Positions 17,221 to 21,387 of a stretch of 40,242 nt of DNA are shown one piece after another. Origin of the DNA: Anaerolineae bacterium (GTDB lineage: Bacteria; Chloroflexota; Anaerolineae; Anaerolineales; Villigracilaceae); the NCBI GenBank assembly GCA_018648605.1, contig JABGQU010000009.1, positions 1-40,242 on the forward strand, in the 5' to 3' direction. Position 1 is the first letter of the stretch. Every line of letters begins with the position of its first letter. The notes under the pieces are model-generated. The model saw nothing but the letters and a program-made list of their open reading frames with translations. It was not told where the DNA came from and did not search any database. Position numbers and translations under genes: made by a program.

Positions 17221-18435
17221 ATGAAAAAAACAATTATTATCGGCGCAGGTCCTGCAGGCTTGATGGCTGCCGAAGTTTTACTCTCTGGCGGCATGCAAGT
17301 CGATATTTACGATGCCATGCCCTCTGCTGGCAGGAAGTTTCTTCTGGCAGGCAAAAGTGGGTTAAACATAACTCATTCCGAGCCTTACGAGAAATTTATT
17401 TCTCGCTATGGGGAAGCGGCAGAATGGCTCAAACCTTACCTCGATGATTTCCCGCCTTCTGCATTACGCGCATGGACAGAAGAACTCGGCATCAAGACCT
17501 TCGTCGGCTCATCGGGGAAGATATTTCCCGCAGGGATGAATGCTGTCCCCATGCTGCAGGAATGGCTGGAGCGTTTAAATGAGCAGGGTGCAAAATTCCA
17601 TTTTCGACATCGCTGGTTGGGATGGAATGAGAAAAATGCCCTTCATTTTGAGACTGCTGAAGGCGAGATTTTAACGGAAGCTGATGCAGTGATACTCGCG
17701 CTCGGAGGCGGTAGCAGACCCAAAACAGGTTCGAACGCGGCGTGGATCCCAATTTTGGAAGAACGCGGCATTAGCGTCGCGCCGCTGAAAGCATCCAATT
17801 GCGGCTTTGATATTCAATGGTCTGAGCATCTAAAAACGCGCTTTGCAGGCAGTCCAATCAAATCTGTATCACTCTCATTTGGTGCGCAAAAAAAACGTGG
17901 GGAGTTCGTACTCACCGAAAACGGGATCGAAGGGAGCTTGATCTATACTTTTTCAGCTGCCTTGCGAGATGAGATCGAGAAATCCGGTAGCGCGATCATT
18001 CAACTCGACCTGATGCCTGATTGGTCAAGCGAGAGATTGCTCAAGGCCCTTTCCAAAGAGAGCGGCTCGCGCAGCCTTTCCAATCATCTTAAAAAGCAGA
18101 CGGGGCTGGCAGGCGCAAAGGCAAACCTGATCTGGGAAGTTTTATCAGGCAATGCCCGCAATGATGAGAGAGAGCTTGCGAAAACGATCAAAGCACTTCC
18201 CCTGACTCTGCTCACCCCACGCCCTCTTGACGAGGCGATCAGCAGCGCAGGGGGCATAAAACTTGATGACCTAGATCAAGCCTTGATGTTTAAAAAAATG
18301 CCCGGCGTGTTTTGCGCAGGCGAGATGTTAGATTGGGAAGCACCCACCGGCGGCTACCTGCTCACTGCCTGTTTTGCAACCGGTAAAGCGGCAGGCAGGG
18401 GCGCGTTCGCTTGGCTGCAAAGGAGAAATTCATGA
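17221..18435 (+). CDS. BaiN/HI0933-type NAD(P)/FAD-dependent oxidoreductase
   Basis: 404 residues. N-terminal FAD-binding GAGPAGLMAAEVLLSGG (GxGxxG), then the family mark GRKFLLAGKSGLNITHSEP, a middle domain, and the C-terminal FAD motif GVFCAGEMLDWEAPTGGYLLTAC. It matches the HI0933-like family (TIGR03862-type subgroup, TIGR00275 relatives). The natural substrate of most members is unknown. The stop codon overlaps the start of the thioesterase gene (ATGA), so the two are coupled. Confidence 0.9.
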   Translation: MKKTIIIGAGPAGLMAAEVLLSGGMQVDIYDAMPSAGRKFLLAGKSGLNITHSEPYEKFISRYGEAAEWLKPYLDDFPPSALRAWTEELGIKTFVGSSGKIFPAGMNAVPMLQEWLERLNEQGAKFHFRHRWLGWNEKNALHFETAEGEILTEADAVILALGGGSRPKTGSNAAWIPILEERGISVAPLKASNCGFDIQWSEHLKTRFAGSPIKSVSLSFGAQKKRGEFVLTENGIEGSLIYTFSAALRDEIEKSGSAIIQLDLMPDWSSERLLKALSKESGSRSLSNHLKKQTGLAGAKANLIWEVLSGNARNDERELAKTIKALPLTLLTPRPLDEAISSAGGIKLDDLDQALMFKKMPGVFCAGEMLDWEAPTGGYLLTACFATGKAAGRGAFAWLQRRNS

Positions 18436-18899: not shown

Positions 18900-18900
18900 A

Positions 18901-18940
18901 AAAAGAGCCGCCAAAAAAAAAATTGAGAGGCTCTTTTCTT
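18901..18940. terminator. Bidirectional terminator after the thioesterase gene
   Basis: AAAAGAGCC (18901-18909) pairs with GGCTCTTTT (18929-18937); TCTTT follows on + and an A/T-rich tract on -. The loop is long and A-rich. Confidence 0.65.
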
Positions 18941-19004
18941 TCGCAAAATACCCTTACTGAATCACTACACTGTAAAGAAAGTTTTTTGCATTTCTTACCA
19001 TTAC

Positions 19005-19084
19005 GTCACTGCGAGCGTCTGTTGCGAATCAGTCTCCCCACCAGTGCGGAGATTGATTCGGCGGAAAACTTGCCTCGCAATGAC
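19005..19084. repeat. Dispersed palindromic repeat GTCACTGCGAG, copy 1
   Basis: Ends GTCACTGCGAG and CTCGCAATGAC are inverted copies (10 of 11). Inside, GAATCAGTCTCC pairs with GGAGATTGATTC (11 of 12). The whole 80 nt can fold into one long stem. A second copy lies at 24713-24822. Confidence 0.75.
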
Positions 19085-19109
19085 CAATAAGAATATGTGC
19101 TTATTTATT

Positions 19110-19691
19110 TTACGGTGCAATTACTTTTGCAAACTCAGCTTCAAACTCTGCTGCGGGAACAGCCCCTAGCCAGGTTTTGACTGGCGTTCCGTTGCTGTCC
19201 AAAAGGACGAACATCGGTTGGTAGCTAAAACTGAACTCTTGCTTGAAAGGCTCTACAAGCGGATCTTCTATATCAAGATAAGAGAACTCGATCTGACCGA
19301 AATACTCTGCTTCAAGCCCGTGCACGACGGGCGCCATAGAACGGCAGGTACTTCACCAAAAGGCAAAGAATTCGATCAGTTGCGGTTTTCCGCTGGCAAG
19401 ATTTACAGTGCTCGGGTCAGTTGCTTCAAGATCATTACCTCGTGGGGTAACAACAATAACTGGCGCTTCAGCAGGTGGTTCTTCTTCAACAACTGGAGCG
19501 TCCGCTTCTGGAGCGGGGGCAACAACCGGAGCTTCTGCTTCAGGAGCAGATTCAGGGGCGGGGGCGGCAGGTTCTGCCGCGATCGTCGGCGTCGGCGGGG
19601 AAGCAGGCGCACTTGGGGTACAAGCCGAAAGAACGAAAACGGCAAGTAAGCCCAGGGTCAAGAATGTATTACGGTTCAAATGATCCTCCAT
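19110..19691 (-). CDS. Thioredoxin-like lipoprotein, candidate selenoprotein (in-frame TGA at codon 113)
   Basis: Reading through one TGA (19353-19355) gives 193 residues. N-terminal lipobox LSAC is followed by an Ala/Pro/Glu-rich linker (about 24-90) and a complete thioredoxin fold. The active site reads FFAFW-TGA-STCRSMAP, so TGA replaces the first Cys of WCxxC. The part after it keeps the cis-Pro loop (SYQPMFVLLDSNG) and the last strand and helix. A TTG at 19679 with GGAGG 5 nt ahead is a better start than the ATG at 19691, because it removes acidic residues from the signal peptide. TGA serves as a normal stop elsewhere in the window, for example at 18433 and 27597. The most likely reading is UxxC selenocysteine; a nonsense mutation is the alternative. 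It would act outside the membrane in redox or thiol exchange. Confidence 0.75.
19316..19332 (-). promoter_or_regulatory. Candidate bacterial SECIS hairpin
   Basis: On the - strand GCCCGT-CGTGC-ACGGGC forms a perfect 6-bp stem with a 5-nt loop whose second base is G, about 27 nt after the TGA. This fits the loose bacterial SECIS rule (apical loop with an early G, about 16-37 nt past UGA). It lies inside the coding region, as bacterial SECIS elements do. Confidence 0.55.
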
Positions 19692-19812
19692 TTCTTATAT
19701 CTTTTATATAGTTTATGCAAAGATATTTTACTTTATTATGATAATATTCACCTTAATTATCTTACTAAGACCTTGATACTCTAATCAGGTTTTAATACTC
19801 TAAAAGGATACC

Positions 19813-21387
19813 ATGTCTGCATTTAAATTAACTTACGCAACTATGTTCGACCCACCCGCTGAATTGCATACGCGCTTTGACGAAGCCATCATCCAGTTGA
19901 AAGCCAATCTTGGACGCGAGTTTGGGATGCACATCAACGGCAAAGATGTTTTTACCGATGAAAAATTAAACGACTACTCCCCCATTGACACCGAAATGAA
20001 ACTGGCTGTGATGCAAAAGGGCAACGAGAGCCATGCGCAGGCTGCCATTGAAGCAGCGCGCAAAGCCTTCCCTGCCTGGTCACGGACACCCTGGCAAGAG
20101 CGCCTCAAACTCTTGCGCCGAGCCACCGACCTGATCGACAAACGTATTTTTGAATTGAGCGCAGCTATGGCGCTCGAAGTCGGCAAAAACCGCATGGAAG
20201 CGCTCGGCGACGTCGCCGAAACCGCTGACCTGATCCGCTACGCCTGCGACCAGATAGAAGAAAATAACGGCTTCGTCGTCGAGATGGGCAAAGACCCGCT
20301 CGTCGGCTACGAGGCGCGCAACGTTTCCAAATTGCACCCCTACGGTGTTTGGCTGGTCATCAGCCCTTTCAATTTCCCATTTGCGCTCACGGGTGGACCA
20401 ACTGGCGCAGCGCTTGCAGCGGGCAATACTGTCATCATCAAACCTGCCACAGATACAGCCTGGATCGTACGTCTGCTCATGGATTGTTTCGTAGATGCAG
20501 GTATCCCGGATGGCGTGCTCAACTTCGTGACGGGACCGGGACGCACGTTGGGACAGGCGCTCGTTGACAGCCCCGACATTGACGGGGCGACCTTCACCGG
20601 TTCGTTAAAGGTCGGCATGAATATCCACCGTGCCTTTAGCAGCGGTAAATACGTCCGTCCAACCATCTTGGAATTGGGTGGCAAAAACCCCGTCATCGTC
20701 TCGCGTAACGCCGATCTTGAGCGTGCCGCGATCGGCATCGTCCGCTCGGCGTTTGGTTTGCAAGGACAAAAATGCTCAGCAGCATCGCGCGTCATTGTCG
20801 AGGCACCCGTCTACGACGATCTGGTTTCGCGCCTAAAAGAGCTAACTGAAAATCTCGTCATTGGCGACCCAACTGAGAAGGAAACCTATATGGGACCGGT
20901 AATTAACGAATCAGCTTATCGGGATTTCCAGAACTTTAACGAGGAAATATCAGGAACCGGGGCAACGTTCATTACTGGCGGGCATGTCCAGGTCACGGGC
21001 GATTACACCAAAGGCTATTTCTGCGAGCCAACGTTGGTCACCGACCTTCCGCTTTCCCATCGTCTCTGGCAAGAGGAGATGTTCGTCCCCATTACGACTA
21101 TCACCAAAGTGGACGATCTCGACACGGCAATGGAGATCGCCAATAACGTCGATTATGGTCTCACGGCTGGCTTCTATGGCAGCCACAATGAAGCGGATTG
21201 GTTCTTCGACAAGATCGAAGCAGGTGTCGTATACGCCAATCGCCCACAAGGTGCGTCAACGGGCGCATGGCCCGGATTCCAACCCTTTGGCGGCTGGAAA
21301 GGTTCTGGCTCCAGCGGCAAGAATGCCGGTGGGCATTATTATGTTCAGCTTTATATGCACGAGCAAACCCAGACTTTGATCAAATAA
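19813..21387 (+). CDS. L-glutamate gamma-semialdehyde (1-pyrroline-5-carboxylate) dehydrogenase
   Basis: 524 residues of the aldehyde dehydrogenase superfamily, closest by eye to the RocA/PruA group: oxidises glutamate semialdehyde to glutamate with NAD(P)+ in proline/arginine breakdown. Visible are the cofactor region VISPFNFPFALTGGPTGAAL, the Gly-rich FTGSLKVG, the general-base loop LELGGKNP (Glu287) and catalytic Cys321 in GQKCSAASR. The length matches RocA (about 515). No proline dehydrogenase gene is adjacent. AAAAGGA precedes the ATG. A TTGATA about 40 nt upstream may be its -35. It diverges from the thioredoxin-like gene. Confidence 0.88.
   Translation: MSAFKLTYATMFDPPAELHTRFDEAIIQLKANLGREFGMHINGKDVFTDEKLNDYSPIDTEMKLAVMQKGNESHAQAAIEAARKAFPAWSRTPWQERLKLLRRATDLIDKRIFELSAAMALEVGKNRMEALGDVAETADLIRYACDQIEENNGFVVEMGKDPLVGYEARNVSKLHPYGVWLVISPFNFPFALTGGPTGAALAAGNTVIIKPATDTAWIVRLLMDCFVDAGIPDGVLNFVTGPGRTLGQALVDSPDIDGATFTGSLKVGMNIHRAFSSGKYVRPTILELGGKNPVIVSRNADLERAAIGIVRSAFGLQGQKCSAASRVIVEAPVYDDLVSRLKELTENLVIGDPTEKETYMGPVINESAYRDFQNFNEEISGTGATFITGGHVQVTGDYTKGYFCEPTLVTDLPLSHRLWQEEMFVPITTITKVDDLDTAMEIANNVDYGLTAGFYGSHNEADWFFDKIEAGVVYANRPQGASTGAWPGFQPFGGWKGSGSSGKNAGGHYYVQLYMHEQTQTLIK

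Follow-up and report, generated by a model that had tools for sequence, protein, structure and literature searches.

Gene layout and predicted product

The window, by which we mean the whole stretch of 40,242 nucleotides analysed here, is contig C53 of a 3.26-Mb assembly that is 96.1% complete. On its minus strand, direct translation of 19110–19691 gives a single reading frame with one in-frame TGA and a terminal TAA. The TGA is codon 113 counted from the ATG at 19691 and sits in the context FAFW-U-STC-RSMAP, where U marks the TGA; the program-made open reading frame ends there, after 112 aa. A sequence-only reading of this stretch had described a thioredoxin-like lipoprotein that is complete save for one TGA at the first active-site Cys. 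Translation and Pfam confirm that description: residues 100–185 match PF00085 (Thioredoxin) with E 1.1e-10 and 41.9 bits, above the cut-off of 23.5. The wider proposal, that this is a selenocysteine (Sec) thioredoxin-like lipoprotein, is supported by the computational checks reported below, which came out in its favour. The features are collected in Table 1.

Table 1. Features of the Sec thioredoxin lipoprotein locus and its divergent neighbour, in window coordinates
Feature	Coordinates	Strand	Basis
Predicted CDS, Sec-containing thioredoxin-like lipoprotein, 189 aa from the probable TTG start	19110..19679	-	Translation, Pfam, orthologue starts
Shine-Dalgarno-like GGAGG, 5 nt upstream of TTG 19679	19685..19689	-	Sequence read directly
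Predicted signal peptide up to lipobox LSA-C; Cys codon TGT 19622-19620	19620..19679	-	Translation
Pro/Ala/Glu-rich tether and stretch into the thioredoxin domain	19395..19619	-	Translation; model pLDDT
TGA, almost certainly read as Sec (Sec109 from TTG, U113 from ATG 19691)	19353..19355	-	Homologue column
TGC, predicted resolving Cys112 of UxxC	19344..19346	-	Invariant column C116, alignment A4
Candidate bacterial SECIS hairpin within the CDS, 6-bp stem, 5-nt loop CGTGC	19316..19332	-	Conservation, covariation
CCG, conserved thioredoxin-fold Pro (P159 from ATG 19691)	19215..19217	-	Column nearly invariant
Divergent neighbour, aldehyde dehydrogenase	19813..21387	+	Best matches are L-glutamate gamma-semialdehyde dehydrogenase models, below cut-offs

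The sequence-only reading had begun the gene at the ATG at 19691. That codon is in frame, but it lies four codons upstream of a likelier start, the TTG at 19679. Translation probably begins at the TTG, because the GGAGG stands 5 nt upstream and because all seven same-genus orthologues have a start codon at the same position (TTG in six, ATG in L018). One of them, L015, also has an ATG one codon ahead of that position, and purine stretches with GGA precede the start in all seven. From the TTG, the product is 189 aa with Sec109, Cys112 and the lipobox LSA-C20. The LSAC at residues 17–20, close to the N-terminus, is the sequence motif of a bacterial lipoprotein, and a loose regular expression picks out a lipobox-like motif in 42 of 50 Sec homologues. 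The eight without it comprise four truncated by contig ends (L040, L041, L053 and L057) and four in which near-misses such as TSAC are seen by eye (L025, L030, L054 and L058).

Residues further along were compared in alignment A4, which holds 38 sequences; the second Sec of its two UxxU members is displayed as C in column C116. P159, the cis-Pro of the thioredoxin fold, lying opposite the active site, is conserved in 90% or more of the 38 sequences, and the tether is poorly conserved among homologues in both sequence and length. The structural model has an overall pLDDT of 59, with values below 50 for residues 13–86 (from ATG 19691), 66–86 over 10-residue blocks of the thioredoxin part and 56 in the active-site block. 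The best fold match of the thioredoxin part is 3gnj_A (Z 13.7, 2.3 A over 108 residues), and the best 50 solved folds for the model are mostly plain thioredoxins. A thioredoxin fold with its conserved Pro is therefore found, on a model of modest confidence.

An aldehyde dehydrogenase homologue with 65–80% identity adjoins the gene divergently in 17 of 54 related loci. Two further loci have a match, one divergent at 28.5% and one in the other orientation at 28%; among the loci without the aldehyde dehydrogenase, six have less than 1.2 kb upstream of the TGA. The shared neighbourhood supports orthology rather than function, and a functional link of the dehydrogenase to the thioredoxin is not clear. 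The short convergent neighbour at 18411–18899 matches no Pfam family and has only a weak hotdog-thioesterase match, below cut-off.

The in-frame TGA in homologues

Homologues were sought in 100 genomes, the window's own included, of which 95 had some match at E 0.001. The relatives are genome assemblies only, many of them fragmented. The 70 loci taken cover every match listed with E below 1e-15. A separate protein search returned two close named relatives, an Anaerolinea sp. MAG and Anaerolineales bacterium UBA4823, both Anaerolineae; its third match, L011, is a distant thioredoxin. Out of 75 matches, 56 are orthologue-like by an E below 1e-25, the window's sequence among them, and the 19 weaker rows left out are other thioredoxin-like proteins or broken copies. 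The column of the active-site codon holds TGA in 50 of the 56 (from 49 genomes) and TGT or TGC in six, four of these from the 100 genomes and two (L009 and L010) from the protein search. Thus the alignment check proposed with the sequence-only reading finds the column mostly TGA with a minority of Cys codons, which is the arrangement of a bacterial selenoprotein: an in-frame TGA at the position of a redox Cys, with Cys homologues.

The frame stays open for 78–86 codons past the TGA in all 50 TGA forms. Between the window and the seven same-genus copies, the changes after the TGA number 132, 80 and 261 at codon positions 1, 2 and 3. The corresponding dN/dS is 0.08–0.27 in six of the seven comparisons; the seventh has saturated dS, and in the comparison with L019 dS is also close to saturation (3.7). 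Taken together, the open frame, the bias of change to third positions and the low dN/dS indicate that the region downstream of the TGA is most likely translated and under selection. The earlier claim that the frame continues intact beyond the TGA thus holds, with no decay and with purifying selection in six of the seven comparisons.

A lone TGA in a single assembly could be a nonsense mutation in a pseudogene, or a sequencing error in which TGC or TGT was miscalled; the sequence-only reading had allowed for this. Against this, the identical TGA recurs in 50 sequences, the downstream frame is intact and selected, and the hairpin described below covaries. We therefore reject this explanation, the TGA being common to 49 genome assemblies and the frame intact, and give it almost no weight; sequencing error, which had been named as something to be checked, is implausible.

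Two of the loci are irregular. L055 (G064:C719) carries the Sec-thioredoxin lipoprotein gene twice in tandem, so that the 50 TGA forms come from 49 genomes, and its downstream copy has diverged. L069 (G073:C24) is a frameshifted homologue, with the frameshift just past the active site and a TGA at the site in the upstream frame; it is counted neither as a TGA form nor as a Cys form. The SelA of the G073 assembly is likewise split in two, and assembly indels are possible.

The SECIS-like hairpin

Downstream of the TGA lies the sequence GCCCGT-CGTGC-ACGGGC (19332–19316), with G at loop position 2. The stem begins 20 nt and the 5-nt loop 26 nt after the TGA. The 6-bp hairpin, its 5-nt loop and the loop G had all been recognised correctly from the sequence; the distance given for it, about 27 nt, fits the loop but not the stem. 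A search for the hairpin pattern of the family gives a single match in the 40-kb window and no match in 100 shuffles. In fold energy, the 46-nt region is just slightly better than its shuffles (z -1.53, matched by 11 of 200). Since this is unexceptional, the case for a SECIS element rests on conservation rather than on the fold energy of a single sequence. Rfam finds nothing above gathering score in 18900–20000, with three matches at chance level.

A hairpin shortly downstream of the TGA with conserved structure is found throughout the TGA forms, 48 of 50 being fully paired (6 of 6 pairs). In alignment A1, where stem columns 54–59 pair with 65–70, the proportion of paired cells is 99.0%; shuffles give 94.2% and slid controls no more than 48.7%. 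There are 21 double-change cells against 6.6 in shuffles. When 12 more loci are included, of which 11 come from other orders of the class (alignment A5), pairing is 99.2%, double-change cells rise to 40 against 13.6 shuffled, and a fourth covarying pair appears. The count of further standard pair types is not above shuffles (161 of 500 in the 50-sequence set, 79 of 500 with the 12 added loci).

The most informative pair joins columns 58 and 66. Codon +9 opens with column 58, which is either A (Met or Ile) or G (Val), and column 66 is the third position of a His codon found in 50 of 50. An A is accompanied by CAT in 32 sequences; a G is accompanied by CAC in 17 and, as a G-U pair, by CAT in one. 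The synonymous choice between CAT and CAC thus tracks an amino-acid change elsewhere, which is hard to explain by selection on the protein. Tree contrasts for this pair on supported branches give six independent contrasts, five or six of the six concordant and none discordant (p 0.03–0.06).

The six Cys homologues have not retained the stem: 58.3% of cells are paired, compared with 54.5% in shuffles, and each homologue has three or four of the six pairs. Two of them, L009 and L059, have lost all of the VHG residues encoded by the stem region, and L010 has lost the Val and Gly. This loss, whole or partial, suggests from the sequences compared that the constraint on VHG comes from the RNA and less from the protein itself. 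L062, L065 and L068 retain His-Gly and four of the six pairs, possibly as a remnant of the hairpin. Protein coding may account for the conservation seen in the initial part of the folded region (GCC...GGC). Bacterial SelB needs a G and a U in the loop; here, a Val codon shared by all 50 sequences is a confounder for both bases.

Selenocysteine machinery

All four of the genes that had been proposed for checking, selA, selB, selD and the tRNA-Sec gene selC, were located in the window's genome. SelA scores 435.1 bits, SelD 350.9 bits and SelB 334.3 bits against a cut-off of 242. The tRNA-Sec scores 65.2 bits against a gathering score of 47 and is called tRNA-SeC with anticodon tca by ARAGORN; six weaker tRNA-like matches in the same genome fall below the gathering score. 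The 40-kb window itself holds no tRNA genes. The selD gene (L044, G000:C75) has an in-frame TGA within the motif GUASK and shares its contig with selA, and SelD of this genome is probably a selenoprotein too. The presence of SelA, SelB, SelD and tRNA-Sec amounts to a complete Sec gene set, and the GUASK SelD is a second gene pointing to its use.

This bears on whether TGA might be reassigned throughout the organism, for instance to Trp or Cys. Under such a code the frame would also stay open. However, TGA is the true stop codon of 12 of the 50 TGA-form genes, the Sec machinery is complete down to a SelD that itself encodes Sec, and the TGA is accompanied by a hairpin that is not kept in the TGT and TGC forms. 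A code change is accordingly rejected, since TGA still terminates these 12 genes, and its probability is negligible, in agreement with the sequence-only reading. All of these comparisons make it almost certain that Sec is what the in-frame TGA encodes.

Sec and Cys forms

Among the relatives, SelA was sought at E 1e-3 and SelB at E 1e-50; the search for tRNA-Sec was confined to the window's genome. Each of the 49 Sec genomes has at least one of the two proteins, SelA being above cut-off in 46 and SelB in 46. The three without SelB above cut-off (G008, G077 and G093) all have SelA, and the three without SelA all have SelB. These few absences follow the pattern expected from gaps in incomplete assemblies. 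Four Cys-form genomes were tested; in three of them (G067, G080 and G092, family f9) neither SelA nor SelB was found at these thresholds, and the fourth, G085, has a Cys form yet keeps both.

In the tree, the Cys forms make two groups nested within the Sec forms, and the sister of one group is the Sec form L055, so at least two changes between Sec and Cys are required. Sec may have been lost twice, or lost once and regained in L055. The tree has 108 columns, many weak forks and a midpoint root; on that rooting, Sec is likely the older state in the sampled set, though this is unproven.

An alignment-profile search of 298 genomes drawn from the class gave 89 with a match at E 1e-15 or better. 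The 37 matches listed with E below 1e-35 comprise 34 with one TGA, one with two TGAs, one with a TGA and a TAA, and one with none. From this search 20 loci were taken. Six of these (L087–L092) are the window and genomes already counted. Each of the other 14 (L093–L106) carries the TGA, followed at the usual distance by a hairpin with every stem position paired, and 11 of the 14 lie outside the order, so forms with TGA and hairpin exist in other orders of the class. Two of the 14 (L095 and L096) are re-fetched genomes already counted, and the remaining 12 were those added to form A5. We lean, by a modest degree, toward regarding this as an undescribed class-wide selenoprotein family in which Sec would be older than Cys, and in which VHG would be dictated by the SECIS RNA and drift after Sec is lost.

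Relationship to known families

Sec-containing thioredoxins (PF00085, UxxC) are listed as experimentally verified in Table 1 of PMC13188914. The window protein shares with the verified protein the PF00085 fold family and a Sec placed first in UxxC. It differs from it in that its family are lipoproteins with a long Pro-rich tether, and in the active-site motifs, which are U-S/G-T-C or U-P-T-C after FAFW or FRFT. Against the thioredoxin equivalog TIGR01068, the window protein scores 45.4 of the 96.8 bits needed and does not reach the cut-off.

The nearest selenolipoprotein model is NF041057, the Rcas_1661 family thioredoxin-like (seleno)lipoprotein, which corresponds to the UxxC 'DsbG-like protein' in the same Table 1 of PMC13188914. 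It is likewise a thioredoxin-like lipoprotein able to carry Sec in UxxC. The window protein (P0001) scores 23.2 of 190 bits against it, below cut-off, and among 38 members of the family, matches with an E of at most 0.01 are found for 14, the best E being 1.8e-6. When NF041057 was searched against 60 genomes, the matches listed for the window's genome lay on other contigs (C94, C164 and C151), and among the matches listed the cut-off was passed only by G068, at a different locus.

TlpA, ResA and DsbE resemble the window protein in being exported, membrane-anchored proteins of thioredoxin fold. The window protein reaches only 20.9 of 123.15 bits for DsbE, 18.5 of 230 for TlpA and 13.9 of 170 for ResA, and indeed falls far under the cut-off of every NCBIfam model it matches. 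The 38 family members match 27 NCBIfam families, with a best E among the 25 listed no better than 5.1e-14. We infer from these E-values that the other members are also below the NCBIfam cut-offs, apart from those scanned directly.

Table 2 of PMC1794560 gives three selenoproteins of three families for Chloroflexi. Sec formate dehydrogenases are described from Anaerolineales single-cell genomes in PMC4959059, so the Sec trait is already recorded for the order there, but for a different protein family; the word thioredoxin is absent from the main text of that paper. In the available text of PMC4959059 and PMC5736913, Sec in Anaerolineales is mentioned for formate dehydrogenase only. The open-access literature, to which the search was confined with subscription papers and preprints outside its scope, holds no report of a Sec-thioredoxin lipoprotein in Anaerolineae. 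Since the window protein passes neither the thioredoxin equivalog nor NF041057, and since the available text on Anaerolineales mentions Sec only for formate dehydrogenase, it is a new family, Sec-thioredoxins as such being already known.

Other thioredoxin-like genes with in-frame TGA were seen in the course of this work. L074 (G093:C380) and L076 (G068:C128) encode thioredoxin-like lipoproteins in which a pair of in-frame TGAs gives a UxxU motif (WUTTUR and WUPTUQ); a single hairpin with the stem CCCGT/ACGGG lies in the same place and seems to serve both TGAs. A second thioredoxin-like family has the TGA at the first Cys (L071, L075, L077, L080, L081, L082, L084 and L085), mostly as LLEFQSPY-U-xxC, with hydrophobic N-terminal stretches, in the same genome group; L078 and L079 are its Cys forms, and the two members scanned, L075 and L084, are below the NCBIfam thioredoxin cut-offs. 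L070 (G053:C9) and L072 (G043:C161) have a hydrophobic segment followed by a thioredoxin-like domain with FIxFYADW-U-xACRSMQP, likely a Sec form, of which L073 (G040) is the Cys counterpart.

Proposed mechanism and function

We consider it very probable that this is a functional selenoprotein gene, with SECIS-driven insertion of Sec and an exported, lipidated, tethered Sec thioredoxin that would act as an extracytoplasmic reductant. Sec-tRNA, made with SelA and SelD, would be carried by SelB, which when bound to the hairpin at 19332–19316 would bring it to the UGA at 19355–19353, where Sec would be inserted in place of termination. The product would be exported and lipidated at Cys20. The lipobox and the long tether are the reason for placing the domain at the outer face of the membrane, where the Pro/Ala-rich tether would hold it. 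In the U-S-T-C site, Sec would be the attacking nucleophile and Cys112 the resolving residue, and the substrates would be disulfides or similar oxidised targets outside the cytoplasm. Recharging across the membrane would probably be by the genome's CcdA/DsbD-type protein; the one CcdA/DsbD_TM match in the genome is on C120, where it adjoins another thioredoxin-like gene.

Sec incorporation generally competes with termination, so the UGA could serve as a selenium-dependent switch, with a short tether lipoprotein made when selenium is scarce, the full thioredoxin when it is ample, and both products used. The TGA does come after a complete signal peptide and tether, and termination there would yield a 108-aa lipoprotein precursor. 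However, the poor conservation of the tether argues against a separate function of a short form, and the Cys forms do without the switch. We think such a dual product improbable.

Alternatively, Sec is inserted as proposed, but the protein serves mainly as a sensor, or as the partner of a reductase for peroxides, methionine sulfoxide or metal(loid)s, and less as a reductant of disulfides in general. PMC13188914 describes the functions of most selenoproteins as not clear, and the residue before Sec is Thr in place of Trp in 26 of the 50 sequences (as FRFTU), making the site unlike the canonical WCGPC. On the other side, a plain thioredoxin is the only domain found. This alternative deserves mention, though we hold it unlikely. 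The most likely job of the Sec thioredoxin, on the features predicted from its sequence, is that of reducing disulfides or other oxidised thiols at the outer face of the membrane.

Significance

Because ordinary gene callers end the gene at the TGA, as in the 112-aa frame here, annotations of a widespread redox protein of these bacteria probably show just a short fragment. The family is also a natural experiment: its Sec forms number in the dozens, the tree has at least two Sec/Cys changes, there are Cys forms whose genomes show neither SelA nor SelB, and the covariation of the hairpin can be traced codon by codon. As interpreted here, it would place a Sec nucleophile outside the cytoplasm in Anaerolineales. 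If the class-wide reading with Sec as the first state is true, these bacteria would carry, at the outer face of their membrane, a disulfide reductant that works with selenium.
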